From the NCBI GenBank assembly GCA_014376815.1, contig JACMQV010000098.1, positions 1 to 32,762 of the forward strand: a stretch of 32,762 nt of DNA, given 5' to 3'. This document shows, piece by piece, positions 2,409-26,049 of this stretch (position 1 is the stretch's first letter; each line of letters opens with the position of its first letter). The DNA comes from Cryobacterium sp. GTDB taxonomy: Bacteria; Actinomycetota; Actinomycetes; Actinomycetales; Microbacteriaceae. The translations under genes and the position numbers were made by a program. The notes below the pieces were generated by a model that saw nothing but the letters and a program-made list of their open reading frames with translations, did not search any database and was not told the DNA's origin.

Positions 2409-2820
2409 ATGGACAAGACCCGGCCGGAGGCCTTCAGTGATGGTGTCCTGGCCATCATCATCACGATCATGATCCTGGAGGCTTTCCCTCGTTCCCTTCA
2501 CGACACGGTGGACCGATGAATCCGGCTTCGCGCAGGTTCCCGTGATGGTCTACGGGATCAACCTGTTGCTCGCGGCCGTGGCCTTCTACCTGCTGCAGAC
2601 CTCGCTGGTGCGGCAGCAGGGCCCGAACGGCCGGCTGGCGCGGGCGCTGGGCCGGGACTGGAAGGGCAAGTTGTCACCGGTGATCTACCTGTTCGGCATC
2701 GCCCTGGCCGTCGCCTGGCCGCTGCTCGCCCTGGCGGCGTTCGCTGTGGTGGCCGTGATCTGGCTGGTCCCTGACCGCCGGGTCGAACGGGCCGTGGCTC
2801 AGGCGGAAAGCCAGCCTTAA
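2409..2820 (+). pseudogene. TMEM175/DUF1211-type channel gene with internal deletion
   Basis: The frame starting at ATG 2409 gives the TMEM175 first helix with its RxxxFSD signature (KTRPEAFSDGVLAIIITIMI), then runs out of family-like sequence after residue 24 and stops at 2519. The family sequence resumes one frame over at about 2482 with LSLVPFTTRWTDESGF and continues through the second half (GINLLLAAVAFYLLQ, then KLSPVIYLFGIALAVAWPLL) to the TAA at 2820. The middle of the domain, about 65-70 residues including helices 2-3 of the first repeat, is absent, and the join near 2479-2482 shifts the frame. Normal bacterial members are about 195-200 residues, with two three-helix repeats forming a potassium channel. 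No working channel can be made from this copy. Confidence 0.85.
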
Positions 2821-2823
2821 CGA

Positions 2824-2855
2824 GACAACGCCCCTGCCGGAGCAGGGGCGTTGTC
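2824..2855. terminator. Strong hairpin between TMEM175 pseudogene and csp
   Basis: A perfect 14-bp stem (GACAACGCCCCTGC) with a CGGA loop starts three bases after the TAA of the TMEM175 pseudogene. It lies between that gene and the convergent cold-shock gene. There is no long T tract, as is usual in actinobacteria, and it could end transcription from both sides. Confidence 0.8.
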
Positions 2856-2898
2856 GAAGCTCAGTGGGGCGGTGACGCCCGAAGAGCAGTTGCGCTAC

Positions 2899-2946
2899 AG
2901 CTGTTGGGCTATTTAGCTGTTGGGCTATTTAGCCGTTGAGCTATTT
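2899..2946. repeat. Three tandem 16-bp repeats at the csp 3' end
   Basis: Two identical units, AGCTGTTGGGCTATTT (2899-2914 and 2915-2930), are followed by a third with two changes (2931-2946). The csp stop codon (2945-2947 on the minus strand) lies at the edge of the third unit, so the repeats form the start of the csp 3' UTR. Read on the minus strand, each unit carries AAATAG. Confidence 0.85.
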
Positions 2947-3148
2947 AGAGGGCGCGGATGTTCTCGGCCTGAGGACCCTTGGGGCCCTGGGTTACCTCGA
3001 ACTCGACCTTCTGGTTCTCGTCGAGGGACTTGTAGCCGTTCGAGGCGATCGCGGAGTAGTGCGCGAACACGTCGGCGCTTCCGTCGTCGGGAGCGATGAA
3101 GCCGAAGCCCTTTTCAGCGTTGAACCATTTCACGGTACCTGTTGCCAT
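2945..3148 (-). CDS. Cold-shock protein (CspA family)
   Basis: A 67-residue single cold-shock domain, the normal length. It has the two RNA-binding motifs: KGFGFI (RNP1) in the segment starting at W8, and DVFAHYSAI (RNP2). The conserved [21 protein letters not shown] tail completes the five-stranded barrel. Members bind single-stranded RNA or DNA and melt RNA structure in the cytoplasm. A clear GGAGGAG site precedes the ATG. The 249 bases between this start and the DUF3097 stop hold no other gene and probably contain the csp promoter and a long 5' leader, as is typical for cold-shock genes; I found no convincing promoter hexamers. Downstream are three 16-bp repeats and a hairpin. Confidence 0.96.
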
Positions 3149-3397
3149 TTTTGAAACTCCTCCAGGAGTGTTAGAAAGGCCCCGACTTTCGAGGCCGTTC
3201 GTCGCGGTATTCGTCGTCCGCTTCCGAAAGGAATACGCCGCACCGACCGAGATCGCTGCGTTTTAAGACGTGCAAGCACTACAACTACTGAGATAACTCT
3301 AGCCCACATCGCTCGGTGCCACCCGGATTCTGTGCCGATTCGGTTCCAAAAGCGTTACGTTTCCTGACGCATCTGCCCAAAACCGGGACACACTGCC

Positions 3398-4279
3398 TTA
3401 TTCGACGGTCACGAAGTCGATCAACTGCTCCACCCGGCCCAGGAATTGCGGTTCCAGGTCGGCATATGTCCTCACTCGGCCGAGAATCCGCTGCCAGGCC
3501 CGGGCGATATCTGCCTGCTCCTCGTGCGGCCAGCCGAGGGCTTCGCAGATTCCATGCTTCCACTCGATGGTGCGCGGGATCACCGGCCACGCCGTCCACC
3601 CGAGCCGCTCCGGCTTCACGGCCTGCCAGACGTCGACGTAGGGATGCCCGACGACCAGCACGTTCCGACCGTGCGGCCCGCGGGCCACGGCGTCCGCGAT
3701 CCGGATTTCCTTCGACCCCGCGACCAGGTGGTCGACGAGCATCCCGGCTCGGCGCCCGGGGCCCGGGCGGAACTCCGCCAGGAGCTCCTCGAGGTTGTCG
3801 ACGCCCTCGATGTACTCGACCACCACTCCTTCGATGCGCAGATCGGCGCCCCAGACCTTCTCGACGAGGTCTGCGTCGTGGCGGCCCTCGACGAAGATGC
3901 GGCTGCCTCGCGCCACCCGGGCGGGCGCATCCGCGACGGCCATCGAGCCGGATGCCGTGCGCGCTCGCCCCCGCGGCGCCGGCCGGGTGGGGGCGACGAG
4001 CACGACCGGCTTGCCGTCGAGCAGGAATCCGCCGCCGAGGGGGAACAGGCGCAGCCTGCCGTGCCGGTCTTCGAGGGTGACGATCTTCTTCTCGATCCGG
4101 ATCACGGCCCCGCAGAAACCGGTGGCCACTTCCTCGATCACGAGGTCCGGCGTGGCTTCCTGCGTCGGAACGACCGGGCGGCCGACCTCCCGCCAGCCGG
4201 GGGACAGCACATCCGCGCTGTACCGATCCGCGCCGTACCGATCCGCGCTGTCCCGATCCTGCATATGTCGCCCATCCAT
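3398..4279 (-). CDS. DUF3097 family protein
   Basis: A 293-residue protein of the actinobacterial DUF3097 family. It has a small N-terminal barrel-like part (about residues 40-95, strands around VIRIEKKIVTLEDRHGRLRLF), then a TOPRIM-like segment (IFVEGRHDADLVEKVWG, then GMLVDHLVAGSKE) and the conserved C-terminal block VVGHPYVDVWQAVKPERLG through WPHEEQADIARAWQRILG. The acidic residues in VEGRHDAD and LVDHL resemble a TOPRIM metal site, which would suggest nucleic-acid work, but no function is established to my knowledge. The start is uncertain: ATG 4279 or ATG 4264, the latter preceded by GGATGGG. Residues 8-22 are a repeat coded by a 15-bp tandem array and are unlikely to be part of the fold. 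Confidence 0.85.
   Translation of the reverse strand: MDGRHMQDRDSADRYGADRYSADVLSPGWREVGRPVVPTQEATPDLVIEEVATGFCGAVIRIEKKIVTLEDRHGRLRLFPLGGGFLLDGKPVVLVAPTRPAPRGRARTASGSMAVADAPARVARGSRIFVEGRHDADLVEKVWGADLRIEGVVVEYIEGVDNLEELLAEFRPGPGRRAGMLVDHLVAGSKEIRIADAVARGPHGRNVLVVGHPYVDVWQAVKPERLGWTAWPVIPRTIEWKHGICEALGWPHEEQADIARAWQRILGRVRTYADLEPQFLGRVEQLIDFVTVE
4211..4255. repeat. Three 15-bp tandem repeats inside DUF3097 N-terminus
   Basis: Three units of ATCCGCGCTGTACCG, with one base difference each in copies 2 and 3, encode the peptide R(D/Y)(S/G)AD three times on the minus strand. Fifteen is a multiple of three, so copy number can change without breaking the frame. Confidence 0.85.
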
Positions 4280-4322
4280 CCTGCCACCGTCGGTGCCGCG
4301 CCTCGCGGCACCGGAATCGACG

Positions 4323-5126
4323 CTAGCGGATGCCCCGTGCGATCGCCTCCGCGGCCTTGGTCTCCCGGGCGAGGAAATCGCCCAGCTCGCCGACGGTGCT
4401 CATCAGGGGCGCCGGGAACACGACCACGGTGTTCTTGTCCACACCGATTTCGACCAGGCTCTGCAGGTTGCGCAACTGGAGTGCGAGCGGGTGGGCCATC
4501 ATGATGTCCGAGGCTTCACCCAGCGCCGCCGCAGCCAGCGACTCGCCTTCCGCGTTGATGATCTTGGCGCGCTTCTCCCGCTCGGCCTCCGCCTGTCTCG
4601 CCATCGCGCGTTTCATGCTTTCGGGCAGGAGGATGTCCTTCAGCTCGACCAGGGTGACCTCGACGCCCCAGTCGAGGGTGCGAGCGTCCAGGATCTCCCG
4701 GATGTTGACGTTGAGGACGTTCGTCTCGGCGAGCGTTTCGTCGAGGGTGTGCTGGCCGACGACCTTGCGCAACGTGGTCTGGGCGATCTGATCGATCGCC
4801 GCCCGCACGTCTTCAATCGCGACCACGGACCGCACCGGGTCGACGATCCGGTAATACGCCACGGCGGACACACCGACGCTGACGTTGTCCTTGGTGATGA
4901 TGCCCTGAGACTGGATCGGCAGGGTCACGATTCGCAGACCGACCCGGTGCAGGACGTCGATGAACGGAATGAGGAAGGTAAGCCCGGGCAGCCGCGTGCC
5001 GGTCAACCGGCCGAACCGCAGCACCACGCCCTGCTCGTACTGCTTGATCACCCGCACCGACAGCACCAGGACGAGCAGGCCGATCACGAGCAGCACTACC
5101 AGGACGATTGTCAGCGTCATGCTCAT
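4323..5126 (-). CDS. Slipin (stomatin/band-7, SPFH-domain membrane protein)
   Basis: A 267-residue slipin. One N-terminal membrane helix (about residues 4-25, TLTIVLVVLLVIGLLVLVLS) is followed by the SPFH domain (EQGVVLRFGRLTG, PGLTFLIPFIDVL, QSQGIITKDNVSV, VRAAIDQIAQTTLRKVVGQHTLDETL), a helical AEREKRAKIINAEGE segment and a C-terminal LRNLQSLVEIGVDKNTVVVFPAPL typical of slipins. The open frame reaches 5549, but the family start and a good ribosome site (GGAGAGGG) place the start at ATG 5126. Slipins form oligomeric cages or scaffolds on the inner membrane. Many are paired with an NfeD-type protease partner, but none is next to this one. Confidence 0.92.
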   Translation of the reverse strand: MSMTLTIVLVVLLVIGLLVLVLSVRVIKQYEQGVVLRFGRLTGTRLPGLTFLIPFIDVLHRVGLRIVTLPIQSQGIITKDNVSVGVSAVAYYRIVDPVRSVVAIEDVRAAIDQIAQTTLRKVVGQHTLDETLAETNVLNVNIREILDARTLDWGVEVTLVELKDILLPESMKRAMARQAEAEREKRAKIINAEGESLAAAALGEASDIMMAHPLALQLRNLQSLVEIGVDKNTVVVFPAPLMSTVGELGDFLARETKAAEAIARGIR

Positions 5127-5235
5127 GGGAACCCTCTCCGAGGCTCGGGACACCGTACCCTCCATGTTCACCCGGAGGAGCGGGTTTGGCCAGTGCCAGG
5201 CCGGTTCCGTCGCGGGTCGGTAGTAGCCTGTCGCT

Positions 5236-5949
5236 ATGTGCGGTCGCTTCATCATCACGGACACGGCGTCCGATCTCGCCGCGATGTTCGACGTCGAACA
5301 CGAGGGGGAGAACCTCCCGGAGCCCTCCTGGAATATCGCCCCCACGGAGCAGATCCCGATCGTGCTCGAGTCGGCGAAGTCCGGGGAGGTCGTGCGTCGT
5401 CTCGAGGCGGCGCGCTGGTCGCTGGTTCCGTCCTTCGCCACCGAGCTGGCCTCGGGGTTCCCCACCTTCAACGCCCGATCCGAAACGGCCGGCGGGAAGG
5501 CTTCGTTCGCCAACTCCGTCGCCTCCAGACGCGCCCTGGTGCCGGCCACCGGTTACTACGAGTGGCGAACGGTCGGCACCGTCAAGACGCCGTTCTTCAT
5601 CCATTCCGATGACGGCCTGCCCCTGGCCCTCGCCGGACTGTATTCCTGGTGGCGTAACCCGGCCATGGCCGACAACGACCCGGCCCGATGGGTGCTGTCT
5701 GCCACGATCCTGACCCAGGACGCCCAGGGGGCGTTGGCCGACCTCCACGACCGCATGCCCGTCATCCTCGCCGAGGAATCCTGGGACCAGTGGCTGGACC
5801 CGCACACTCCGGGCGACCAGGCCTTCGTGGACGCGGCTGTCGCGGCGTCCCGTGAAGCCGCAGACGGACTCCGGTTCCACGAGGTGGCCCCGATCAGGGG
5901 AAACGGACCGGAACTGATCGAGCCGGCCGGCGACCGCGCGACGGGCTAG
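5236..5949 (+). CDS. SRAP domain protein (YedK/HMCES-type abasic-site shield)
   Basis: A 237-residue single SRAP domain of normal length. Cys2 directly follows the start Met (MCGRF), and in this family its freed amino group and thiol form a thiazolidine link to abasic sites in single-stranded DNA. The other active-site residues are present: N33 in WNIAPT, E109 in GYYEW and H171 in HDRMPV. Also typical are RWSLVPSF and NARSET, which line the DNA-binding cleft. The start is fixed by the need for Cys at position 2. The gene diverges from the slipin across a 109-base gap. In many bacteria relatives lie next to SOS genes; no such neighbour is seen here. Confidence 0.95.
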   Translation: MCGRFIITDTASDLAAMFDVEHEGENLPEPSWNIAPTEQIPIVLESAKSGEVVRRLEAARWSLVPSFATELASGFPTFNARSETAGGKASFANSVASRRALVPATGYYEWRTVGTVKTPFFIHSDDGLPLALAGLYSWWRNPAMADNDPARWVLSATILTQDAQGALADLHDRMPVILAEESWDQWLDPHTPGDQAFVDAAVAASREAADGLRFHEVAPIRGNGPELIEPAGDRATG

Positions 5950-6226: not shown

Positions 6227-7072
6227 GTGCTCGCCGTTCAGAGGACTGACCCGGTCTCGTTCCACGCCGAGGGTCCGGTCTGGTCCGATTCCTGGGGCGG
6301 CCTGCGCTGGGTCGACATGTTCGCCGGTGACGTGCTCTCCCTCGACGGCGACACGATTCATCGCCGGCATGTCGGCCCGATAGCCGCTGCTCTCCGGCCC
6401 CGTCAGCGCGGCGGAGCAGTGATCGCGCTCGAGCGCGGGTTCGCCCTCGAGGACGCTTCGGGCAGGATCGAGCGGCTGGGTGACCTGTGGGAGAACCCGG
6501 GGATCCGCATGAACGAGGGCGGCTGTGACCCGGACGGGCGCTTCTACTGCGGGTCCATGGCCTATGACCAGCGCCCCGGTGCGGGGGTCCTGCACCGCCT
6601 CGACCCGGACGGCACGGTGACTCCGGTCCTCCGGAACCTGACGATCTCCAACGGCCTGGAGTGGAGCCCGGACGGCTCCCTGGCCTATTTCAATGACACC
6701 CTCAGCGGCCGGGTCGCGGTCCTGGATTACAGCCCGGAGCGCGGGCTCACGGGGTTGCGCACCTTCGTCGCCATCCCGCCCGAGGCCGGGTTTCCGGACG
6801 GCCTCACCGTGGACCGTGAGGGCGCTGTGTGGGTGGCCCTCTATCGCGGGTCCGCCGTTCGGCGCTACACGCCGGCGGGCCTGCTGGACGGGATCGTCGA
6901 GGTGGCCGCGCAGAACGTGACCGCCTGCACCTTCGGCGGACCCGGTTTGGACCAGCTCTTCATCACCACGTCCCGGGAGAACCTGCAGCCCGGCCAGGAT
7001 CCGTTGGCCGGATCGGTCTTCGTCGCCGACGTCGGCGTGGCCGGGCTGCCGGTTCGGCAGTTCTTCGGCTGA
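6227..7072 (+). CDS. SMP-30/gluconolactonase/LRE family protein
   Basis: A 281-residue six-bladed beta-propeller of the SMP-30 family, which hydrolyses sugar lactones with one bound divalent metal. The metal and active-site residues are visible: E15 in HAEGPVW, the asparagine in ISNGLEWSPDG and the aspartate in GFPDGLTVDREG. The block RMNEGGCDPDGRFYCGSM is the family's RxNDGxxDxxGRFW segment, here with Glu in place of the usual Asp. The open frame runs further upstream, but the GTG at 6227 gives the family length and starts just before the first blade. It is convergent with the DUF1345 gene. The sugar substrate cannot be read from sequence. Confidence 0.9.
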   Translation: MLAVQRTDPVSFHAEGPVWSDSWGGLRWVDMFAGDVLSLDGDTIHRRHVGPIAAALRPRQRGGAVIALERGFALEDASGRIERLGDLWENPGIRMNEGGCDPDGRFYCGSMAYDQRPGAGVLHRLDPDGTVTPVLRNLTISNGLEWSPDGSLAYFNDTLSGRVAVLDYSPERGLTGLRTFVAIPPEAGFPDGLTVDREGAVWVALYRGSAVRRYTPAGLLDGIVEVAAQNVTACTFGGPGLDQLFITTSRENLQPGQDPLAGSVFVADVGVAGLPVRQFFG

Positions 7073-8866: not shown

Positions 8867-9742
8867 TCAGCGCAGTCCGAGCCGATCCACCCAGGAGCCG
8901 AGGAACTGCGCCCCGGCCGCGTCGTGGATCAGGTCGCCTTCGATGATCACCGGGTAGGGCCTGTCGAGGATGCCGTCCGCGGGCCGCACGTCCACATGGG
9001 AGACGTCGTAGCCGGCGGCGTGCAGGTGATCGGCCATCAGGTAGTCGCTGCGGGAATCCCCGACCGACCGCCAGGTCCGGGGGAGCGGCCCGGAGACCGA
9101 GAAGAAGGCCAGGGCCCGCTTCGCGCCGTGGTCCTTGTCGAGGGTCACCGACTCGATGTCGGTCGAAATGATCGTCGGGTCGATCCGGAACGGCACGACG
9201 CCGCGCGCGTCCGGATGGACCCGATCATTGAAACGGATGCCGAGGCCGAGGCCGGTGAGCAGGGTGAACGCGGCCTCGTTGAAGTCAGCGGCCGCGATCT
9301 GGTAGGCCGCATGGTCGGCGTCCGTGCGCTGTTCGACCGACACCATGGCCTGCTTGGTCTCGTCGAAGAACATGGTGTCGCTGAACCGGTCGGCGACGAG
9401 AGCACGGATGGCCTCGATCGCAGGAGTCGGCAGCGCAACACTCTCGTCCACGACGACGTCACCGATGCCGGCGGCCGTGATGGGGAACCAGACCGCGCCC
9501 TTCTCGCAGACCCCGTACATGCGCATGGATTCGGGCAGGCCGGCGGCGCGGAGCGGCACCACCACCTCGTCCCGGATGAAGGCGACCGAGCGGCCGGTGA
9601 TGAACGCGATCGGCACGTTGGCGCGGGCGAGGAGGATCAGGTCCGTGATGATGCTCGGGGTGGCGATGGTGCGGGTCACCGGGCTGGCGATCGGCCCGTC
9701 CACGTCGAGGAGCAGGCCGAGGGGAGAGGGGGAATCAAGCAT
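8867..9742 (-). CDS. HAD-superfamily hydrolase (subfamily IIB-like)
   Basis: A protein of about 291 residues with all HAD signature motifs. Motif I is LLLDVDG (nucleophile D13 and acid D15 from the ATG at 9742), motif II is AFITGRS, motif III is the lysine in TLDKDHGAKRAL, and motif IV is SVGDSRSDYLMAD. The large cap between motifs II and III fits the C2B cap of sugar-phosphate phosphatases such as trehalose- or sucrose-phosphatase. Members remove phosphate via an aspartyl-phosphate in the cytosol. The substrate is unknown. A GTG at 9757 in frame is an alternative start. Confidence 0.82.
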   Translation of the reverse strand: MLDSPSPLGLLLDVDGPIASPVTRTIATPSIITDLILLARANVPIAFITGRSVAFIRDEVVVPLRAAGLPESMRMYGVCEKGAVWFPITAAGIGDVVVDESVALPTPAIEAIRALVADRFSDTMFFDETKQAMVSVEQRTDADHAAYQIAAADFNEAAFTLLTGLGLGIRFNDRVHPDARGVVPFRIDPTIISTDIESVTLDKDHGAKRALAFFSVSGPLPRTWRSVGDSRSDYLMADHLHAAGYDVSHVDVRPADGILDRPYPVIIEGDLIHDAAGAQFLGSWVDRLGLR

Positions 9743-9763
9743 GCCCCAGTCTTTCACGCCCGG

Positions 9764-10347
9764 TCAGCGCCGGCGGATCGTCACAGTGCCGTTGGTCGTG
9801 CGCGCGTCGACGGAATAGGTCGTCTCGTCATCGGGCACACGCACCGTGACACTGCCGTTCGTGCTCCGCGCCACGACGGCGGCAGGCGGCAGGTCGAAGT
9901 CGAGTTCAACCCTGCCGTTGGTCGTGGTGGCAGAAACGCGGCGGGAGCCCGACTCCTGAACGCGGATCGCGCCATTGGTGGTGACCGCGTCGACCGCGCC
10001 GCGGGAACCGGTCACCGTGACCTGGCCGTTCGTGGTGACCAGTTTCTGCGGGCCGGTCAGCCCGGCTGCCGTGAGCCCGCCGTTCTGCGCGGCGACGGTC
10101 AACGGAAGCGGGGGGCCGGCAACGTCACCGTCAGCTCCAACGAGCAGTAGCCGAACCACTGGCTCGGACAATCTCCGGTGATGGTCGTCACATCGTTCTC
10201 CGTCGTCACGGCCAGGGGCGACACCAGAATGACGCCCAGCGCCGCCACGGCGGCGATCAGGGACAACCCGACGATGAGGGCGGTTCGGCTGGCGGTGGAC
10301 ATCCGCGGGCGATTCTCGGGCGCCGGGGGAGGCGGTGCGACCGTCAT
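9764..10347 (-). pseudogene. DUF4097-type beta-repeat surface protein, frameshifted
   Basis: The first frame (start 10347) gives a proline-rich start, one membrane helix (TALIVGLSLIAAVAALGVILVSP) and the beginning of a beta region ending LELTVTLPAP before a TGA. The same protein continues one frame over as PLPLTVAAQNGGLTAAGL and runs to 9764. The second part is a stack of short beta-solenoid turns, each ending in TTNG or STNG (five copies), as in DUF4097 proteins. Adding one base to the six-G run at 10110-10115 (C run on the coding strand) joins both frames smoothly. This is either a real frameshift or a homopolymer sequencing error. The intact protein would be membrane-anchored with the repeats outside. 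Confidence 0.82.
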
Positions 10348-14511: not shown

Positions 14512-14973
14512 CTATCGACCGCCGGCGCGCCGGCCGATGCGGTAGGACACGTACGCGACCACGGCGAGCAGGCCCAGCAGTTTGGGCAGGCTGCTGAGCT
14601 GGTCGGTCAGGATGCCCTTGGCCAGCGCGAGGGCGTTCAGGCTGGTCTCCGCCGGCGCAGCCGCGGGCCGGGCCGCGGGCGTCGGCGGCGCCGGTGTGCC
14701 CTGCGCCGTGCCCTGGCCGCGGGTCTCCTGCGCGCGCCCCTCGAAAACCGCCCGGTGGGCCGGCGCATCACGCTCGAGGACCGTCATCTGCCCCTTGTAC
14801 TGCATGGTCACCGGACCCAGCTTCACTTTCATCCCGACCTGATAGGCGTCATCCGACAGCTTGTTCAGCACCTGCGCCCCCGGGACGCAGCCGGCGACGC
14901 GTTCAAAGTCCATTAGAGTCTTCCACACCTGGTCGATCGGTGCGACGACGCAGAAAGTGCTGTCTATTTGCAT
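14512..14973 (-). pseudogene. coxG: CoxG-like protein with in-frame internal deletion
   Basis: The first 88 residues are the N-terminal half of a CoxG (SRPBCC/START-fold) domain: DFERVAGCVPGAQVL, VKVKLGPVTMQYKGQMTVLE and AQETRGQGTA. The family normally continues with a beta strand, a TDLxxxGRxAQFGRG-type segment and a long final helix. Here the sequence jumps at about residue 90 (near 14700) to a proline/alanine linker and a C-terminal membrane helix (LLGLLAVVAYVSYRIGRR). About 65 residues are missing, yet the frame is kept. CoxG anchors CO dehydrogenase at the membrane; without the second half of the fold this copy is unlikely to work. Its ATG overlaps the coxE stop as TAATG, which shows the original translational coupling. 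Confidence 0.8.
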
Positions 14974-16468
14974 TATCGTGTCCTCTGATTCTCGGATGTG
15001 CTCACACGGTCGGCGCGGATCGCCGCCGCTACTTCTGTCAGTGCCGCGTAACTGTGCCCGCTGACGAACGCGTCGACGTAGGGAGCGCCGCCGCCATTCC
15101 GCCCACCACCGGCTGGTAGTCCAGGGCGACCTTCCGGGGGGTTGACGCAGACGATGCGGTGGGCCAGGCGCCGCAGCCGGGCCATCTGGGTCCCCACCAA
15201 AGCCAGATCGTCCATCGCCCAGCGGTGGCCAGTTGCCGGGTCGGCCGGGTCAGCCGGGTCGAGAAGACGAAGGCTTCGACCTGGGCCCCGGCCACCGAAC
15301 CCTGCAGCAGGGAGAGGAACACCCTCGTATACGGTTCCATCGACCCGGACACATCGCACAGAAGGACCAGGCGGCTTAGGCGGGTGCGACGACGCCGGTA
15401 GACGAGCCGGAGGGGCTCGCCGCCGTTGCGCTGCGCCGCTCGGACCGTGCGTCGCAGGTCCAGCCGCGGGGTGGTCGACGAGGTCTTCCGGATACGACGG
15501 CTGACCCGCTCCGGCGTGGACAGGCTGATTCGCCGCACGAGCGCGCGCATCTGGGCCACCTCGTCGGGGGCCAGGTCGGCGAAGGACATCTCGTGCAGAC
15601 GCTGCTCGGCCGAGGCCATCATCAGGATCGATTCCCGCTCCGGCGCCTCGATGTCCTCGGAGCCGCCCCCGGCCGGGGCGAAGGCAGGTTCCTGCCGGTC
15701 CGTCTCCCGGCCGGCCGACTCGGTCGGCCGTTGGTCTGCCGGGATCGCGAACAGCGTGCGGTGGGCGTGCGGGACCTGGCTCGTCTCGTAGAGGGTGAGC
15801 GCGCCTTCGATGGGTTCGAAGTCCGCGACCGCCCCGCAGGTTTCCATCGGCGCCGGGTGCACGCGGGGATACACCATCTCCTGGGAGACGACGACATCCG
15901 CCGAGGCGAACACAGCGTCGGTCTCGGCCGCGTCACCGGCCTCCCAGTCGAAGATGTGGTTGTCCGTTCGCCCCTCGATGTCATCCCGGATGACGGGCGC
16001 ATCGGGGTCCAGAGCCTTCCGGACGTCGATCACCGGGGGCAGCACGTCGTAGTCGACCTCGATCAGTTCCAGCGCGTCGCGGGCTGAGTAGCGGTCCTCC
16101 GCGATGACGAACGCGACCTCCTGCCCCTGGAAGCGCACCTTGTCCGTAGCGAGGACGGCCTGCACGTCGGCGGACAGTGTCGGCGCCCAGGCGAGCTTGA
16201 GCCCCAGCAGGTCCTGGCCGGTGATCACGGCCACCACGCCCGGGTGGGCCAGCGTCGCACTCGTGTCGATCGAGACGAGGCGCGCGTGCGCGACGGGGGA
16301 GCGGAGGATGGCTCCGTGGAGCATCCCGGGCAGCACGATGTCGTCGACGTAGTTTCCTTTGCCGCGCACGAACCGTGGATCTTCCTTGCGCTGGATACGG
16401 CCGTAGCCGATGGGCCGGTCATCGTCACCGGCGGCCGGGTTCGCGGCCCGTTCCTCGATGATGGTCAT
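14973..16468 (-). pseudogene. coxL'-'coxE in-frame fusion with damaged coxE tail
   Basis: Residues 1 to about 243 are the start of the CO-dehydrogenase large subunit CoxL (IGYGRIQRKEDPRFVRGKGN, then DIVLPGMLHGAILRSPVAHA, up to LYETSQVPHAHRTLFAI). Near 15740 the frame passes without a stop into the middle of CoxE, a von Willebrand A protein (LVLLCDVSGSMEPYTRVF, AFVFSTRLTRPTRQL). The molybdenum-binding bulk of CoxL, any coxD between them and the CoxE N-terminus are gone. CoxE itself is broken again near 15210-15230, where about 55 residues are missing and the frame changes, and it has two one-base shifts in G runs (15136-15141 and 15081-15083). Its true C-terminus, VDAFVSGHSYAALTEVAAAI, ends at 14973. 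The start codon overlaps the coxS stop as ATGA. Confidence 0.85.
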
Positions 16469-16962
16469 GCGGTCACCTCTTCTCCTGCGGTTTCTTCCTG
16501 GGCCACCGGGTGTTCTGCGGCCCACTGCACCGAGCGCACGATGGTCGCGTAGCCGGTGCACCGGCACATCTGGCCGGAGATCGCCTCGCGGATCTCGCCC
16601 TCATCCGGATGTGGGTTATGGTCGAGCAGGGCGCGGGCCGTGAGCATCATGCCCGGCGTGCAGAACCCGCATTGCAGGCCGTGTTCCTCCATGAATCCCT
16701 GCTGCACGGGGTCGAGGGTGGTGCCGGAGGAGAGCCCCTCGACGGTCGTGATCGAGAGGCCGTCGGCCGTCGCCGCGAGCACCGTGCAGGACTTCACCGG
16801 CTGGCCGTCCATCAGCACGACGCAGGTGCCGCAGTTGGAGGTGTCGCAACCCCAGTGCGTGCCCGTCAACCGCAATACGTCACGGATGAAGTGCACGAGG
16901 AGCACGCGCGGCTCGATCTCCTGGTTGATGTCCTTGCCGTTGACGGTCATGCTGATCTGCAT
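16465..16962 (-). CDS. coxS: CO-dehydrogenase-type small [2Fe-2S] subunit (CoxS)
   Basis: A 165-residue protein of normal length. The N-terminal plant-type ferredoxin domain has cluster cysteines C39, C44, C47 and C59 (WGCDTSNCGTC, then KSC). The helical C-terminal domain has the second cluster's C98, C101, C133 and C135 (LQCGFCTPGM, then QMCRCTGY). In the holoenzyme it passes electrons from the molybdenum centre in CoxL to the FAD in CoxM. This is the only structural subunit left whole here; both partners are truncated. It sits five bases after coxM and overlaps coxL by ATGA, which fits one operon. Confidence 0.93.
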   Translation of the reverse strand: MQISMTVNGKDINQEIEPRVLLVHFIRDVLRLTGTHWGCDTSNCGTCVVLMDGQPVKSCTVLAATADGLSITTVEGLSSGTTLDPVQQGFMEEHGLQCGFCTPGMMLTARALLDHNPHPDEGEIREAISGQMCRCTGYATIVRSVQWAAEHPVAQEETAGEEVTA

Positions 16963-16967
16963 CGACT

Positions 16968-17552
16968 TCAGCTTTCCTGTGCTTCAGTTGCGCGCGCGGT
17001 TGCGCGTCGCAGGACCCGTCGGGTGAGCTCGTCTGCGAGGTGCCGCTTGTAGTCGACCGGTCCCCGCTGGTCGGCAACGGGATCGCTGGCCAGGGCGGCG
17101 AGCCGGCCGGCCTCAACGAAGAGGTCTTCCCGGGGGTGCTGGCCCCGGGGCATGGCTTCGGCCTCGGTCACGGTTCCTTCGACGCCCACGGCGGTGAGAC
17201 CGATCGTGAATTCGTCGACCGTGCCGCCGGCTGCCAGGGTGACCGACGCCCCCGCTGCCACGACGGCCCAGTCGCCGACTCGGCGCTCGACCTTTTCGGA
17301 GGCGCTCAACGAATGCGCCCCGATGCGGAGCGTGTCCCCATCACGGAGCACGAAGTCGAGTTCGAACAGGTCGTTGATGTCGATCAGGCACTCCGGCCTG
17401 GCCAGCCGCAGCTTCATCATCGGGAGCAGGCTGTGCCCGCCCGCCACGACCCGGGACTCCGGGCCGTGGCGCTCGAGAAGCGCGAGAGCATTGTCGACCG
17501 TGCTACCACGCACATAGTCGAAGGGAGCCGGAATTTGCTCGATTGCCTCCAC
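16968..17552 (-). pseudogene. coxM: CO-dehydrogenase FAD subunit (CoxM) with in-frame internal deletion
   Basis: Residues 1-79 match the CoxM N-terminus, including the first FAD loop AGGHSLLPMMKLRLA (37-51) and CLIDINDL. After DTLRIGA the sequence jumps (near 17300-17320) to EKVERRVGDWAVVAAGAS, which belongs to the C-terminal domain. The missing part, about 110 residues, would hold the second FAD loop (TxGGxxxxADP-type) and the rest of the FAD domain. The result is 194 residues against about 290 normally. The frame is kept, so a protein could be made, but it should not hold FAD. The start is GTG 17552, behind a good promoter. Confidence 0.85.
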
Positions 17553-17696: not shown

Positions 17697-17815
17697 GTGC
17701 ACTGTCTCAACCAGCGCTCGTCCGGTCACAGTCAAACTGATCCCGGAAGTCCGCTTGCCAGCATACATCCCGTGAGGTGCCAACCGGGGGAGCGGACCGT
17801 GCCTCGGGGTGGGGT

Positions 17816-18454
17816 TCAGAAATCCGACCCGTCCGCCGGCCCGAGGGCCCCCACGGTCAGGCCCAGTTCGTGTTCCGCGACCGTGCGCACGAGTCCGCGC
17901 AGCCGTTTCGCATCGCCGTAGCGCACGATCGCGTGCGCGTTGAGCCCGTCGATGATTGCGAGCAGCTGCCAGGCGACCGCATCGGGGTCGGTCGCCCGGA
18001 ACTCGCCCCGCTCGCAGCCGGAGGTCAGGAGTCCGGACAGGAAAGCCTGCCAGGCATCCATCTGGACACCCACTTCCGCCGCCAGCGGGGCGTGGCGACG
18101 GCCGAGGCTCCAGGCGTCGAGCCAGACGGCGGTCACGGCGCTGCGCTCAGGACCGAGCAGCGTGTTGATCAGGGCCTGCAGCGTTGCCACCGACGTCTCG
18201 CAGGGCGCGAGCTCCTCGGCGACCTCCACGATCTCGGCCGCGACGATCGCCCCGAAGGTCGCGGCAACGAGAACGTCCATGCTCGGCTGGTAGTGGCTGA
18301 TCAGGGCGGGCGTCACTCCGATCCGCGACGCGACCGCGCGCAGCGTGATGGCCGGCAGCCCCTCGTCCAGGGCGATCTCCCTGGCGGTGCGCGCGATCTC
18401 CGCCGCACGCTCGACCGGTGCCTTTCGCCGGGCTGCGCTCTGATCGGTTGACAT
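17816..18454 (-). CDS. TetR-family regulator
   Basis: A 212-residue TetR-type regulator. The N-terminal DNA-binding domain (about residues 15-62) reads RAAEIARTAREIALDEGLPAITLRAVASRIGVTPALISHYQPSMDVL, with the helix-turn-helix ending in the ISHY recognition helix. The C-terminal part is helical and includes a DAWSLGRRHAPLAAEV segment like that of BetI-type members. The gene is divergent from aguB, with a perfect palindrome in the gap, so local control of the agmatine genes (and of itself) is the simplest reading. It also lies upstream of the cox genes but is separated from them by a terminator. The ligand is unknown; agmatine or another polyamine is a guess from context. Confidence 0.9.
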   Translation of the reverse strand: MSTDQSAARRKAPVERAAEIARTAREIALDEGLPAITLRAVASRIGVTPALISHYQPSMDVLVAATFGAIVAAEIVEVAEELAPCETSVATLQALINTLLGPERSAVTAVWLDAWSLGRRHAPLAAEVGVQMDAWQAFLSGLLTSGCERGEFRATDPDAVAWQLLAIIDGLNAHAIVRYGDAKRLRGLVRTVAEHELGLTVGALGPADGSDF

Positions 18455-18488
18455 GAAAGCACAGTCTATATATCTTTAGGCATCGCCT

Positions 18489-18506
18489 ATTGATCAGCTG
18501 ATCAAT
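18489..18506. promoter_or_regulatory. Perfect 18-bp palindrome, probable TetR operator
   Basis: ATTGATCAGCTGATCAAT is fully self-complementary and lies in the 93-bp gap between the divergent tetR and aguB starts. On the tetR side, a TATATA-like -10 lies at about 18468-18475, so a protein bound here could block both promoters. Size and symmetry are typical of TetR sites. Confidence 0.75.
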
Positions 18507-18547
18507 TAATCTGTCCGCACACCAGCCACCACCAGGGAGATCTCCTC

Positions 18548-19540: not shown

Positions 19541-20562
19541 GCTGGCTGATGCCGGCGGAAACCGCCCCCCAGGACCGGGTATGGATGGCGTTCCCGGTGG
19601 CCGGGTACACGCTCGGCGCGAACGCGGAATCGGCCGACGAGGCGCGCCGCACCTGGGCCGCGGTCGCCCACGCGGTGCTCGACTTCGAGCCCGTCACCAT
19701 GGTCGTCGACCCGGCCGAGCGGGCTCTGGCACTTCGGTACCTGTCCTCGGAGGTCGAGATCATCGAGGCGCCGCTCGACGACGCCTGGATGCGTGATACC
19801 GGCCCGACTTTCGTGCTGGGCGATGATGAGCAGCTCGGGGCGGTGGACTGGACGTTCAACGGCTGGGGCGCTCAGGACTGGGCGGCCTGGGACAGGGACG
19901 CCCAGATTGGCCGGCGCGTCACCGCGGTCTCGGGCGCGACGGGGATCTCCTCGGTTCTCGTGAACGAGGGCGGCGGCATCCACGTCGATGGGGAGGGAAC
20001 GGTGCTGGCCACCCTCAGCGTCCAACTCGACCCCGGCCGCAATCCCCATGCCGACCGGGCCAGGGTCGAGGCCGAGTTCGCCCGCACCATCGGTGCCACC
20101 CGCGTGGTCTGGCTGCCTCGTGGGCTGACCCGCGACCAGGAACGGTACGGCACCCGGGGGCACGTCGACATGGTCGCCGCCATCCCGTCACCGGGCACGG
20201 TCCTGGTGCATGCCCAGAACGACCCGGCCCACCCCGACTACGCCGTGACCCGGGAGCTCCGCGCCGTGCTCGCCGCATCGACGGATGCCGCGGGCCGGCC
20301 CTTTACCGTCGTGGACCTGCCGGCCCCGGCCGCGCTCACGGACGGTGACGGCTTCGTCGACTACAACTACGTCAACCATCTCGTCGTCAATGGCGGCGTC
20401 ATCGCCTGCGGGTTCGGGGAAGACCAGGCTGACCAGGCGGCACGGGAGCTCCTGGCCGCCGTGTACCCGGGCCGCACGGTCGTGTCGGTCGAGGCGCGGC
20501 CCCTGTTCGCGCGGGGCGGCGGCATCCACTGCATCACCCAGCAGCAGCCGTCAGTCCGGTAG
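19537..20562 (+). CDS. aguA: Agmatine deiminase (AguA, peptidylarginine-deiminase fold)
   Basis: A 341-residue agmatine deiminase of normal length. It hydrolyses agmatine to N-carbamoylputrescine and ammonia. Visible family blocks are the start MPAETAPQDRVWMAFP, the substrate-binding DDAWMRDTGPTFV, the WTFNGWG segment, NEGGGIHVDGEGT, the catalytic-histidine block GHVDMVAAI and the nucleophile C332 in RGGGIHCIT. All catalytic positions appear intact. The start codon overlaps the aguB stop, giving a two-gene route from agmatine to putrescine under likely control of the divergent TetR protein. Confidence 0.95.
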   Translation: MSWLMPAETAPQDRVWMAFPVAGYTLGANAESADEARRTWAAVAHAVLDFEPVTMVVDPAERALALRYLSSEVEIIEAPLDDAWMRDTGPTFVLGDDEQLGAVDWTFNGWGAQDWAAWDRDAQIGRRVTAVSGATGISSVLVNEGGGIHVDGEGTVLATLSVQLDPGRNPHADRARVEAEFARTIGATRVVWLPRGLTRDQERYGTRGHVDMVAAIPSPGTVLVHAQNDPAHPDYAVTRELRAVLAASTDAAGRPFTVVDLPAPAALTDGDGFVDYNYVNHLVVNGGVIACGFGEDQADQAARELLAAVYPGRTVVSVEARPLFARGGGIHCITQQQPSVR

Positions 20563-20657
20563 CGGTGCGGGCGGCGTACCGGAGCGTGCCGCTCGTCAGG
20601 CAGACTGGCCGTGGCCGTTCGCCGGCCGCAAACACAACACTCAGCGGAGGAATCGAC

Positions 20658-21206
20658 ATGGCACGTGGAGTACTCGTCATCGACATCCAGCAGGACTATT
20701 TCCCGGGTGGGGCCTATCCGCTGGTCGGATCGCCTGAAGCCGCCCTGGTCGCGGAGGCCGTAGTCGCCGATGCACGATCCCGCGGCGAGTGGGTCGGCCA
20801 CATCCGGCATGCGTCGGAAGCCGAGGCAGGCGGGTTCCTCATCGCGGGCACGCCGGGTGCGGAAATCCATCCGCGGGTCCGGCCCCTGGGCAGCGAGGTC
20901 GTGCTGACCAAGGCCGAGCCGAACTCGTTCGTGGGGACGGGGCTGGACGGCATTCTTCAGGGCGCCGGAATCGACAGGCTCGTGGTGGTCGGCATGATGA
21001 CCAGCATGTGTGTCGACGCGACCGTGCGGGCCGCGCTCGACACCGGCCGCACCGTGTCCGTCGTCGAGAACGGCTGCGCCGCACCTGATCTCGAGTTCGG
21101 GGGCGAGACGATCGGCGGGCGCACCGTGCATCACGCGTTCGCGGCGGCACTTCGGGATGCCGGCGCCGACGTCGTGACATGGCCGTTGGCTGAACAATCG
21201 GCATAA
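20658..21206 (+). CDS. Isochorismatase-like cysteine hydrolase
   Basis: A 182-residue protein of the isochorismatase/nicotinamidase-like family. The catalytic triad is visible: D9 in LVIDIQQDYF, K85 in VVLTKAEPNSF and C118 in GMMTSMCVDATVRAA, the last preceded by the family's cis-peptide region. The family includes nicotinamidases, ureidoacrylate and N-carbamoylsarcosine amidases; the substrate cannot be read here. A strong GCGGAGG site precedes the ATG. It lies 95 bases after aguA on the same strand with no terminator seen between, so it may be the third gene of the agu operon, perhaps acting on a related C-N bond. Confidence 0.9.
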   Translation: MARGVLVIDIQQDYFPGGAYPLVGSPEAALVAEAVVADARSRGEWVGHIRHASEAEAGGFLIAGTPGAEIHPRVRPLGSEVVLTKAEPNSFVGTGLDGILQGAGIDRLVVVGMMTSMCVDATVRAALDTGRTVSVVENGCAAPDLEFGGETIGGRTVHHAFAAALRDAGADVVTWPLAEQSA

Positions 21207-21868: not shown

Positions 21869-22816
21869 TCACCCCGTCAGTACGGCCAGTGCGGCTTGGG
21901 CGCGCTTCATCGACGCGGCGAGCCCCCAGTCGGCGGACAGCCGGTCCAGTTCGGCCTCCTGTTCGCGGTTGCTGACACGGATGCGCGCATCGAACGGGGT
22001 CAGCTCGAGGTCTCGCACCACCTCCACCACCGCCGGGGCGACCGCCAGGTAATCCGCCGCGGCGAGAATCCTGGCGCGCATCGGCGGCGTCATTCCTGAG
22101 CCCGAGTCTGCGGCTGCTCTGACGATGCCGTCGAGGCTCCCGTAGGACGACAACAGCGTGGCCGCCGTCTTCTCGCCCACCCCGGGCACCCCGGGCAGGC
22201 CATCCGAGGCGTCTCCGCGCAGGGCCGCGAAGTCCGCGTATTGCACCGGGGCGACCCCGTATTTCGACTCGAGCGCGTCATTCGTCAGAATCTCGAGCCG
22301 GGCCATGCCGCGTCCGGTATAAATCACCCGCACGTCGCGAGCGTCATCGACCAGCTGGAACAGGTCGCGGTCACCCGTGACCACATCCACGGGCATCGGG
22401 GAGTGCGATGCGAGTGTGCCGATGACATCGTCGGCCTCGTGATTCGGGCTGCCGAGCACCGGCACTCCAAGTGCGGTGAGCACATCGCGGATGACCGCGA
22501 CCTGAGGCGTGAGGAGGGCGGGGACCTCCTCGATCGGAGGGCCCCCATCCGCCGGCTGCGCCTCGGCGACTCGGTGGGTCTTGTACGTCGGGATGAGGTC
22601 CACGCGCCACTGCGGACGCCAGTCATCGTCCCAGCAGGCCACGATTTCGCTCGGCTGGAATTCGGAGGCGAGCCGAGCGAGCATGTCGAGCAGACCTCGA
22701 ACGGCGTTCACGGGCATCCCGTTCGGGGCCCGCACGGTGTCGGGCACCCCGTGAAACGCTCGGAAGTACAGGCCGGCGGTGTCGAGGAGCATACGGCGCT
22801 CGCGCTGATCGGTCAC
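21869..22816 (-). CDS. 5'-3' exonuclease (FEN/PolA N-terminal type)
   Basis: A 315-residue stand-alone 5' nuclease. Metal-binding acidic clusters are at RMLLDTAGLYFRAFHG (D12), ACWDDDWRPQWR with the arch region up to YKTHR, SPNHEADDVIGTLA, VVTGDRDLFQLV and RGDASDGLPGVPGVGEKTA. The last is the helix-3-turn-helix that grips DNA. These match the N-terminal nuclease domain of DNA polymerase I, but no polymerase follows. The start is GTG 22816 with GGGAGG upstream; the longer open frame to 23527 is antisense to the VOC gene. Relatives remove RNA primers or flaps. It is divergent from the VOC gene. Confidence 0.93.
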   Translation of the reverse strand: MTDQRERRMLLDTAGLYFRAFHGVPDTVRAPNGMPVNAVRGLLDMLARLASEFQPSEIVACWDDDWRPQWRVDLIPTYKTHRVAEAQPADGGPPIEEVPALLTPQVAVIRDVLTALGVPVLGSPNHEADDVIGTLASHSPMPVDVVTGDRDLFQLVDDARDVRVIYTGRGMARLEILTNDALESKYGVAPVQYADFAALRGDASDGLPGVPGVGEKTAATLLSSYGSLDGIVRAAADSGSGMTPPMRARILAAADYLAVAPAVVEVVRDLELTPFDARIRVSNREQEAELDRLSADWGLAASMKRAQAALAVLTG

Positions 22817-22957
22817 GGCAAAATCCTCCCACAGGCAGCACCGAAGTGTTCGGCGAATGTGGTGCGGTTTGGCCACCGGCGCTGTCATGCTGGGATGTAT
22901 GACCGGCCGGGCTCCCGCCGGCGTGCCGCAGAATTCATCGTGGAAGAAGGGATGCGC

Positions 22958-23326: not shown

Positions 23327-23441
23327 TGTGACTGTGTCGTCGGACTCTGCTCTGATACCGTATCCCAGGGTGTCGGGCCTGGGGCGCCGGGGCCAGCCTT
23401 GTGCCAGTGGTCGGCCAGACCTCGCGGAGACGGAGGATCGA

Positions 23442-23624
23442 ATGAGTACGGACAGTCGTGCACGTGTGATCGTGCGAGACGGGCCGTGGGGCTTCGTCTT
23501 CTTGTTGGCGTATATCGGAGCCGCCATCTACTTCATCTCCATCTCAGACGGCTCGTTCTGGGGAGTCATCAACGAAGAAGCCCCAGTCCGGAGACTGGGG
23601 CTTCTTCGTTGTCAACTCGGCTGA
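23442..23624 (+). CDS. Small one-helix membrane protein, probably truncated
   Basis: A 60-residue frame starting MSTDSRARVIVRDGPWGF, with one membrane helix (FVFLLAYIGAAIYFISIS) and then DGSFWGVI. Up to there it resembles small actinobacterial membrane proteins that normally continue with a second helix and a short tail. Here the frame after GVI runs straight into the hairpin at 23571-23610, so the last 17 or so residues (NEEAPVRRLGLLRCQLG) are terminator sequence, not a natural protein end. A CGGAGGA site lies nine bases before the ATG. The second half has probably been deleted. Confidence 0.6.
   Translation: MSTDSRARVIVRDGPWGFVFLLAYIGAAIYFISISDGSFWGVINEEAPVRRLGLLRCQLG
23571..23610 (-). terminator. 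Terminator of aceA
   Basis: A perfect 18-bp stem (AACGAAGAAGCCCCAGTC) with a 4-base loop starts 23 bases after the aceA stop. It is the longest hairpin in the window and the natural end of aceA transcripts. It overlaps the tail of the small membrane protein frame on the plus strand. Confidence 0.9.
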
Positions 23625-23633
23625 GCTGACGTA

Positions 23634-25250
23634 TTAGTGACGGCTCAGAGCCGGTTCCTCGAACTGGTTCATCGTGTTGTTCTTGCCGCCGGCCTTCAGC
23701 GCGGCTTCGCCGGCGAAGTACTCCTTGTGGTTGTCACCGAGGTCCGAACCAGACATGTTCTGGTGCTTGACCGTGGCGATTCCCTCGCGGATCTCGCGAC
23801 GCTGCACGCCCTTGACGTAGGCGAGCATGCCCTGGTCGGCGAAGTAGCCCTTGGCCAGGTCGTCGGTGGAGAGTGCCGCCGTGTGATAAGTCGGCAGCGT
23901 GATGAGGTGGTGGAAGATGCCGGCCTCGGCGGAGCTGTCCCGCTGGAAGGTGCGGATCTTCTCGTCGGCGACCTGGGCGAGTTCGGTCTCGTCGTAGGTG
24001 ACGCTCATGAGCTTGGCGCGGTCGTAGGCCGACACGTCCTTGCCCTCTGCGAGGAAAGCGTCGTACACCTGCTGGCGGAAGTTGAGTGTCCAGTTGAACG
24101 ACGGGCTGTTGTTGTAGACCAGCTTGGCGTTGGGGATGGTCTTACGGACCTCGTTCATCATGCCCGCGATCTGGCCGATGTGCGGCTTCTCGGTTTCGAT
24201 CCAGAGCAGGTCCGCGCCGTTCTTCAGCGAGGTGATGCTGTCGAGAATGCAGCGGGCCTCGCCGGTGCCCTGGCGGAACTGGAACAGGTTGCTGGCGAGA
24301 CGCCTGGGGCGCAGCAGCTTTCCGTCGCGCTTGATCACGACATCCCCGTTTCCGAGCTCGGCCTCGGTGATCTCCTCGACGTCGAGGAAGGAGTTGTACT
24401 GGTCGCCCAGGTCCCCGGGCTGGTAGGTCACGGCGAGCTTCTGGGTCAGGCCGGCACCGAGCGAGTCGGTGCGGGACACGATGATGCCGTTGTCGACGCC
24501 GAGCTCGAGGAACGCGTAGCGCACCGCGTTGAGCTTCGCGATGAAGTCTTCGTGGGGAACGGTGACCTTGCCGTCCTGGTGGCCACACTGCTTCTCGTCC
24601 GAGACCTGGTTCTCGATCTGAATCGCACAGGCGCCGGCTTCGATCATCTTCTTGGCCAGCAGGTAGGTCGCCTCGGGGTTGCCGAATCCGGCGTCGATGT
24701 CGGCGATGATCGGCACGACGTGGGTCTCGTAGTTGTCCAACTGATCCTGGATCGCGGCGGCCTTGGCGTCGTCACCGGCGGAGCGGGCCTGGTCCAGGGC
24801 TGTGAACAGCAGGTCCAGTTCGCGGGCGTCGGCCTGGCGGAGGAAGGTGTAGAGCTCAGCGATGAGCGCGGGGACGGCCGTCTTCTCGTGCATGGACTGG
24901 TCGGGGAGCGGTCCGAACTCTGAACGCAGCGCTGCGATCATCCAGCCGGACAGGTACAGGTAGCGCTTGTTCGTGGTCTGCAGGTGCTTCTTGATGGAAA
25001 TCATCTTCTGCTGGCCGATGAAGCCGTGCCAGACGCCCAGGGACTGGGTGTAAACGGAGGAATCTGCGTCGTACTCCGCCATATCCTTGCGCATGATGTC
25101 AGCGGTGTACTGGGCGATGTCCAGACCGGTCCTGAACCGGTTCTGGGCGCGCATCCGTGCGACAGATTCGGGGTTGATTGCGTCCCAGCTGCTTCCGAAC
25201 TCCTGCTTGAGGGCTTCGATGGCCTCGATGTCGTCCTGATAGGCGGTCAT
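23634..25250 (-). CDS. aceA: Isocitrate lyase (long form)
   Basis: A 538-residue isocitrate lyase, which splits isocitrate to succinate and glyoxylate as the first step of the glyoxylate shunt. The catalytic loop SDEKQCGHQDGKV has C222 (KQCGH instead of the common KKCGH). Other family blocks are YLYLSGWMIAAL, VPIIADIDAGFGNPEATYLLAKKMIEAG, ACAIQIENQ, IIVSRTDSLGA and NNSPSFNW. The length fits the larger bacterial subtype. ATG 25250 has AAGGA at the right distance. No malate synthase gene is in the window. The 248 bases upstream are gene-free and AT-richer, with GAAGAAG/CTTCTTC inverted motifs near 25380-25410; I could not name a regulator site. An 18-bp hairpin follows the stop. Confidence 0.96.
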   Translation of the reverse strand: MTAYQDDIEAIEALKQEFGSSWDAINPESVARMRAQNRFRTGLDIAQYTADIMRKDMAEYDADSSVYTQSLGVWHGFIGQQKMISIKKHLQTTNKRYLYLSGWMIAALRSEFGPLPDQSMHEKTAVPALIAELYTFLRQADARELDLLFTALDQARSAGDDAKAAAIQDQLDNYETHVVPIIADIDAGFGNPEATYLLAKKMIEAGACAIQIENQVSDEKQCGHQDGKVTVPHEDFIAKLNAVRYAFLELGVDNGIIVSRTDSLGAGLTQKLAVTYQPGDLGDQYNSFLDVEEITEAELGNGDVVIKRDGKLLRPRRLASNLFQFRQGTGEARCILDSITSLKNGADLLWIETEKPHIGQIAGMMNEVRKTIPNAKLVYNNSPSFNWTLNFRQQVYDAFLAEGKDVSAYDRAKLMSVTYDETELAQVADEKIRTFQRDSSAEAGIFHHLITLPTYHTAALSTDDLAKGYFADQGMLAYVKGVQRREIREGIATVKHQNMSGSDLGDNHKEYFAGEAALKAGGKNNTMNQFEEPALSRH

Positions 25251-25498
25251 TTGCATTCCTTTGACGTGTCGTTCTTGCTGAGGACTGGACTGCTGAATCG
25301 GCGGCCGCTCTTGGCCGCTACATGAAGACTGCGGCAAGTGCAACAGGTCTTCTTCAGTTTCCGGATCAGAACTTTTGCGATTCTTCTTCGTTTGAGAAGA
25401 AAGCGGGCCGAACGTTGACCGACGAGTCCGGAAAGAGGCCGGCGCTGGTCCTGGAGTGCTGGCAACAACCGGTGGACGTCACGGTGCTGCGGCTCCTG

Positions 25499-25909
25499 TC
25501 AGCTCACGGCCCGCTCCAGCAGGGCCACGAGTCGCGTCTGATCGGCGGCCGTCAGCTTGGTCACGGCATAAGAAGTCGGCCAGAAATTGCTCTCGTCAAG
25601 GTTGGCGTCCGGCTGGAAGCCGATGGTGGCGTAACGCGCCTTGAATTTCGCGGCGCTCTGAAAAAAGACCACGACCTTGCCGTCAGCGTTGGTATACGCC
25701 GGCATGCCGTACCACGTCTTTGCACCCAGGCGTGTGTGCGCCTTGACGAGCTGGTGCAGGGTATCGGCCATCTCCTTGTCCGTGCCGGTCATCTCGGCGA
25801 TTGCAGCAAGGCAGGCCGCCTCCAGGTCGGCGCCGTCTCGTGAGGCCTTGGCTTCGGCGGCCGCCGCCCGCATTGCGGCCTTTTCCTCTTTGCTGAATGG
25901 GGTGCTCAT
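25499..25909 (-). CDS. DUF1801/YdhG-like protein
   Basis: A 136-residue protein of the DUF1801 family, related to frataxin-like YdhG. A charged, alanine-rich N-terminal helix (KEEKAAMRAAAAEAKASR) is followed by the domain with its signature TWYGMPAYTNADGKVVVFFQSAAKFKARYATIGF and ending FWPTSYAVTKLT. YdhG-type proteins have been linked to iron handling, but members of this subgroup are uncharacterised. The ATG overlaps the stop of the short upstream frame (25906-26049) as ATGA, so the pair may be coupled. The length is normal and no defect is seen. Confidence 0.87.
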   Translation of the reverse strand: MSTPFSKEEKAAMRAAAAEAKASRDGADLEAACLAAIAEMTGTDKEMADTLHQLVKAHTRLGAKTWYGMPAYTNADGKVVVFFQSAAKFKARYATIGFQPDANLDESNFWPTSYAVTKLTAADQTRLVALLERAVS

Positions 25910-26049
25910 GGTCCGTTCCCTTCATCCGTCCGCTCGACGGCGCCACGATTGCGCGACCCAGTCGCCGCGCTCGCGCAACCAGGTTGCTGCGACGTGCCGG
26001 GAGCGGTCGTCAACTCCCACGGTTCGTCCGCTCCGGTTCCTGTCAACAT
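25906..26049 (-). pseudogene. Probable truncated remnant upstream of DUF1801 gene
   Basis: From ATG 26049 (AGGAG about 10 bases upstream) the frame reads MLTGTGADEPWELTTAPGTS. I associate this opening with a small conserved actinobacterial protein family of about 120 residues (possibly DUF6855), though I am not certain. After residue 20 the sequence no longer looks family-like. A different frame nearby reads TWLRERGDWV, which could be a later piece of the same protein. The frame ends in an ATGA overlap with the DUF1801 gene. A genuine 47-residue leader-type protein is the alternative. The rest of the gap up to 26185 holds nothing I can recognise. Confidence 0.4.

Follow-up and report, generated by a model that had tools for sequence, protein, structure and literature searches.

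Do genes that keep their ends but lack their interiors record gene decay in a living bacterium, or do they record faults in a draft assembly? This question is raised by a contig from the draft genome of a cold-loving Cryobacterium (G000:C269:1-32762), whose full 32,762 nucleotides are called the window here and which carries a damaged cox operon, encoding an aerobic carbon monoxide (CO) dehydrogenase, together with several other damaged genes. Comparison with related genomes makes it quite probable that the window represents real and recent decay of dispensable genes, namely a young and recurrent pseudogenization of the cox operon by illegitimate deletion, plus the loss of other accessory genes. 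An original prediction, made from the nucleotide letters, had named seven loci with missing interiors, and this claim was borne out. Six of the seven were demonstrated against relatives, and the seventh, at 26.0 kb, gave only two short matches.

Positions 1-25,400 of the window were collinear with contigs C42 and C60 of genome G060, the main blocks being 79-95% identical, and the greater part of positions 1-20,500 was collinear with G008:C31 and G012:C58. G060, which is listed as 100% complete, is the nearest relative at this locus, and the best coxL match among named records was that of C. sinapicolor TMT1-23-1 (NZ_SOGQ01000042.1). Compared with collinear congeners, gene blocks were missing at eight joins in the window, located in the TMEM175-like gene, the DUF4097 gene, the CoA-disulfide-reductase-like gene, coxG, coxE, coxL-coxE, coxM, and the gene for a small membrane protein (Table 1). 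At seven in-gene joins the missing blocks were present in G060, as the proposed comparison with the nearest relative was meant to reveal. Sequences present here and absent in at least one relative (window 2331-2815, 17768-18532, and 20547-21199) were treated as whole-gene differences and excluded from the internal deletions; the breakpoints of coxG, the CoA-disulfide reductase, and DUF4097 are imperfectly aligned and possibly off by some bases.

The aerobic form I operon of Actinobacteria contains the genes coxMSLDEFG, and the oxidation of CO as a trace gas is an energy source for dormant actinobacteria. The locus resembles this operon in its domains (FAD_binding_5, CO_deh_flav_C, MoCoBD, VWA_CoxE, COXG, and XdhC_CoxI), but in the window coxD and most of coxL are missing, and coxM, coxE, and coxG are incomplete. 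Four separate blocks of the operon were gone (306, 4,056, 151, and 288 bp), in addition to two single-base lesions. The 306-bp loss in coxM, which removed more than half of the FAD-binding domain, had an identical length against G060, G008, and G012. In four-way alignments, the 151-bp loss in coxE was likewise equal against all three relatives, and the loss in coxG measured 288 bp against G060, 267 bp against G008, and 264 bp against G012. The two small lesions also lie in coxE, where one base was lost near 15084 and one was gained near 15136. In G060, the 4,056-bp block comprises the remainder of coxL (CSFR site included), one XdhC/CoxI-like and one MobA-like gene, coxD (an AAA ATPase gene), and the start of coxE, and the coxL part left in the window is without most of the molybdopterin-binding domains. 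The CSFR motif, which we take to be the active-site motif of form I coxL, was absent from the coxL-coxE fusion of the window and present in the coxL of relatives. Both G008 and G012 had a collinear cox operon without the gaps of the window, and thus intact orthologues at the same place; an unbroken coxL frame was seen in G008 and in L097 (the named record for G012). The window carries lesions that would abolish function, with the active-site part of coxL and coxD absent and coxE frameshifted. From what is known of the family, an operon without the active-site region of coxL, without coxD, and without most of the FAD domain of coxM would not permit a working CO dehydrogenase.

Seven joins compared with G060 showed 0-7 bp of homology at their ends. 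Since so few bases are shared, merging of repeats by a word-based assembler cannot account for these joins, a result that is no test of stripped scaffold gaps. Homology at the joins is slight or absent and the affected genes are whole in relatives, as in deletions of the illegitimate type. The tabulation of gap lengths modulo three and of microhomology, which the prediction had called for, gave lengths divisible by three in five of nine cases (26.0-kb candidate counted; binomial P 0.14) next to the 0-7 bp already mentioned, and selection for in-frame joins was rejected on this basis. The reading frame was indeed kept at coxM, coxL/coxE, and coxG, as had been claimed, but this is not a special property, as the lengths missing from coxE, the TMEM175-like gene, and the small protein are not multiples of three.

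Small frameshifting insertions and deletions (indels) occurred in the same genes as large deletions. Frameshifting indels against all three relatives were found only in DUF4097 and coxE, both of which also carry large deletions, whereas 20 undamaged genes (~16 kb in total), each set against two or three relatives, had none. Indels seen against a single relative were not counted; these affected 4323-5549 and 8867-9757, where other relatives contradicted them, and 21869-22792, where G060 was the only comparison. The neighbours said to be whole proved so, with no frameshifting indel in aguA and the MMPL gene against three relatives and none in aceA against G060. Misassembly with the lost cox blocks placed on another contig was also considered; queries with 2.8 kb of G008 cox sequence and with the coxM-coxE region of G060 (7.2 kb) gave no other strong match in the assembly, which is incomplete, and the remaining blocks were not searched.

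The prediction had further suggested that deletions are unusually frequent in this genome, which holds for the contig of the window but not for the rest of the genome that could be aligned. For this comparison, 73 pieces of G000 (752 kb, window included) were set against 416 kb of G060 and 470 kb of G008, and chained alignments covered 70.4 kb and 77.7 kb, respectively; about 23.5 kb of the G060 part was the window. For three extra 20-kb pieces, a match table against the whole of G060 added ~41 kb of matches, bringing the outside total to ~88 kb, from which weaker G060 matches of L226 (70-79% identity) were left out. A clean loss was defined as at most 30 unaligned bases on the G000 side where the relative has an excess of 100 bases or more, and placement in or between genes followed a simple codon-usage gene finder. 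In the ~23.5 kb of the window compared with G060, seven clean losses were identified, every one in genes. Outside the window, the ~88 kb contained no clean gene-internal loss of at least 100 bp, a count that is a lower bound because gaps within single blast alignments were not counted. A coarse Fisher's test of seven such losses in 24 kb of window versus none in 88 kb outside gave ~1e-5, a value that ignores the choice of the window for its deletions.

Five clean outside losses of at least 100 bp lay between genes (in L245 and L252, one in L244, and two in L256), whereas two smaller losses (72 and 93 bp) lay inside genes and a third (99 bp) at the edge of one. Messy replacements that touch genes, one in L245 near 6900 (net 392 bp) and one in L249 (net 467 bp), were excluded. 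Compared with G008 (~60 kb outside the window), one messy in-gene difference (L027, net 118 bp) and a single clean loss of 1,167 bp within a gene, in L226 (G000:C30) near 4143, were detected. The ends of the L226 join have ~6 bp in common, and it is the sole clean gene-internal loss found outside the window. A genome-wide excess of deletions was therefore rejected for the part comparable with G060. In L256 (G000:C60), positions 122-249 contain a sequence of ~100 bases with many G060 matches, which is a dispersed repeat.

The most telling evidence on whether the joins are real came from other members of the genus, in which the cox operon was damaged as well. Three genomes listed as 100% complete (G060, G044, and G059) carried cox lesions unlike those of the window, with joins that differ from those of G000. 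Relative to all five genomes compared, the coxL of G060 (G060:C60 34249-36256; L178 14249-16256) carried a 4-bp insertion and had lost 408 bp internally. According to match coordinates, ~4.7 kb was gone from coxM to the mobA-like gene in G044 (G044:C31 189650-193213), where coxD and coxE were also shorter by ~188 and ~560 bp and another ~130 bp may be missing, and ~6.1 kb was gone from coxM to coxE in G059 (G059:C29 164679-167556). An open coxL frame of at least 800 amino acids with CSFR was present in all 13 named Cryobacterium loci; these loci were found through their coxL, so broken copies may be missed. The coxL part of the window was matched in at least 32 of 56 other genomes. The idea that the short genes might be old and shared with relatives did not hold for coxM, coxL/E, and coxE, since among the matches listed for the 56 other genomes none passed these joins by more than ~13 bases, and shared ancestral short forms of the three were rejected to that extent.

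Beyond the cox operon, the list of damaged loci in the prediction stood for six named loci, but it had missed the DUF4097 gene. The claim of recognizable ends did not hold for the CoA-disulfide-reductase-like gene, where one end survives and not both. For the TMEM175-like gene, the jump of 179 bp was seen in all eight genomes that matched both sides (G003, G005, G006, G019, G041, G045, G051, and G065). Its N-terminal piece (2409-2516) matched PF06736 (E 1.6e-6), and the C-terminal open reading frame (2542-2817) had no Pfam match above the cut-off; the stretch 2331-2815 had no counterpart at this point in G060 and for the most part none in G008. The CoA-disulfide-reductase-like gene of G060 encodes the domains Pyr_redox_2, Pyr_redox_dim, Rhodanese, TusA, and DrsE_2, and the corresponding interval of G012 is too short to accommodate such a gene. 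The two short G060 matches of the 26.0-kb candidate (window 25951-25983 and 25991-26074) are separated by ~100 bp extra in G060.

Table 1. Coordinates and state of the cox genes and other damaged or candidate loci in the window.
Feature	Position	Strand	State and evidence
coxG remnant	14512..14973	-	Join near 14686-14697, frame kept; alignment to relatives
coxE remnant	15004..15743	-	5' part gone, 151 bp gone at 15228, frameshifted
coxL N-terminal third, in-frame fusion to coxE	15744..16468	-	4,056 bp gone vs G060
coxS, intact	16465..16962	-	No frameshifting indel vs three relatives
coxM remnant	16968..17552	-	306 bp gone at ~17318, frame kept; alignment to relatives
TMEM175-like remnant	2409..2820	+	179 bp gone at ~2480, frame broken; match coordinates
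DUF4097 gene	9764..10347	-	165-bp deletion near 10223, frameshifting 2-bp insertion near 10108
CoA-disulfide-reductase-like, first ~30 codons	10816..10906	-	2,481 bp gone vs G060
Small membrane protein, N-terminal part	23445..23570	+	322 bp gone at 23570 vs G060
Possible remnant, unnamed sequence	25951..26074	.	~100 bp shorter than G060:C43; match coordinates only

A gene at window positions 6227-7072, presumably of an SMP-30-like family (a name assigned by reading the sequence), is whole here, and its G060 copy is without 131 bp, a loss in the opposite direction. In addition, G060 synteny ends near aceA, and window positions 25,402-32,762 have only scattered matches in G060 and G012; this part may be a lineage-specific stretch.

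Several observations weigh against real and recent decay. One concerns selection. On the branch of G000 the nonsynonymous rate (dN) of the cox remnants (coxM, coxS, coxL, and coxG) was ~0.017, with synonymous rates (dS) of 0.15-0.17, and on the branch of G060 the cox dN was 0.015; this set leaves out coxE and the tail of coxG, and the sister copy in G060 is itself damaged. Relaxed selection on the remnants was not found, dN/dS being ~0.1 as in control genes. Either the four large deletions and two small lesions arose late and quickly, or the joins are artefacts. Relaxed selection was thus rejected as proof of decay, as the remnants have the same dN/dS as intact genes, and the decay, if real, is too young for it to show. 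Moreover, the cox operon makes up about a quarter of the compared ancestral length, so that four of seven joins there represent a mild clustering (P ~0.07), and the losses in G044 and G059 were read from match coordinates. G000 is a draft of 3.10 Mb in 301 contigs, with a completeness of 87.5% and a contamination of 6%, and G060 is also a draft. One single-base insertion sits in a run of C, and a coxG-like match in G068 (G068:C33 8788-9266; 68% identity, 463 query bases on 479) runs across the coxG join.

An alternative would be an assembly artefact, in which gaps were closed without sequence (for example, scaffold gaps stripped of N, or chimeric reads where coverage of the contig was poor) and the genes of the organism are whole. 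The normal dN/dS of the remnants, the fragmented assembly, and the indel in the run of C agree with it, as do the joins that share almost no bases, as a stripped gap would. Against it, ~88 kb of other contigs showed no clean gene-internal loss of at least 100 bp compared with G060, and ~60 kb showed one compared with G008; similar defects were thus not spread over the compared part of the assembly. In addition, the small frameshifts coincide with deleted genes, the same operon is similarly reduced in other genomes, and no word-length repeat was found at the seven joins. We consider an artefact rather unlikely, and the collapse of low-coverage segments by an assembler, which the prediction had offered as its second explanation, would be an unlikely cause of the joins in view of their 0-7 bp of homology, the frameshifts that track deleted genes, and the relatives with cox lesions of their own.

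It is far less probable that the shortened genes (in-frame coxM, coxG, and the coxL-coxE fusion) are functional compact variants under selection. The frame kept at the three cox joins and the low dN/dS of the remnants would agree with such variants, as would the G068 match, which has only 16 bases more at the coxG join (among the matches listed). This match may point to a coxG gene that is short by nature, which would give the coxG loss, alone among the losses, a counterpart in another genome, or it may reflect low-complexity sequence stitched into one alignment. However, CSFR and most of the molybdopterin-binding domains are missing from the coxL part, coxD is absent altogether, and coxE is frameshifted, and the excess of lengths divisible by three is not significant. 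G068 aside, no listed match in the 56 genomes extends past the cox joins beyond the ~13 bases given above, so that we regard compact variants as hardly credible. A mixture, in which the joins are real alleles in part of the population and other strains keep the operon, would be in line with the contamination estimate and with an operon state that varies between species. It appears very improbable, as no second cox copy occurs in the assembly, although assemblers often retain one allele.

Under real and recent decay, an ancestor would have possessed a whole aerobic form I-like operon, coxM-S-L-(xdhC/coxI-like, mobA-like)-D-E-G. The operon would have become dispensable, with no selection against its loss, and its four separate blocks would have been deleted; several nearby accessory genes would have lost blocks too. 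Broken ends may have been sealed by end joining or by slippage between very short matches. Of the 57 Cryobacterium genomes, 53 have Ku, G000 among them; therefore, end joining would be available, yet it is not peculiar to G000. The pattern resembles bacterial pseudogene decay with deletional bias, for example that of young Salmonella pseudogenes (PMC2916853); in such decay, as is generally known, accessory genes lose blocks and gain frameshifts and their neighbours stay whole. The present case differs in that large deletions here precede a measurable rise in amino-acid change.

A study of Cryobacterium reports light gene loss in extant lineages, with rates of gene gain and loss that are of the same order and amino-acid substitution rates two orders below those of reference strains (PMC7381226). 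The words "pseudogene", "deletion", and "carbon monoxide" are not mentioned in its main text, and no literature on cox decay in Cryobacterium was found in titles or abstract openings. Both "coxL" and "pseudogene" occur in an article on Mycobacterium ulcerans (PMC10986537). Deletion that outruns substitution would fit the rates of PMC7381226, and a bold possibility is that repair in dormant, frozen cells lies behind it. In cells that stay frozen for long periods and do not replicate, few substitutions would arise, whereas DNA breaks would accumulate and be sealed with base loss on thawing, leading to a deletion-rich and substitution-poor decay of dispensable genes in Cryobacterium, an idea that we put forward as doubtful. 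If it were true, such decay would have left a legible trace in the cox operon, which four Cryobacterium genomes carry in differently broken forms.

Taken together, the window is best explained as ordinary but clearly visible gene decay, affecting one operon in several genomes of the genus. A suspected assembly fault thereby becomes a case in which ongoing gene loss can be studied from deletion ends that are still readable, and the comparison offers a simple test to tell real deletions from assembly gaps in draft genomes. For the genus itself, these results suggest that CO oxidation appears to have been lost by different routes in several Cryobacterium lineages.

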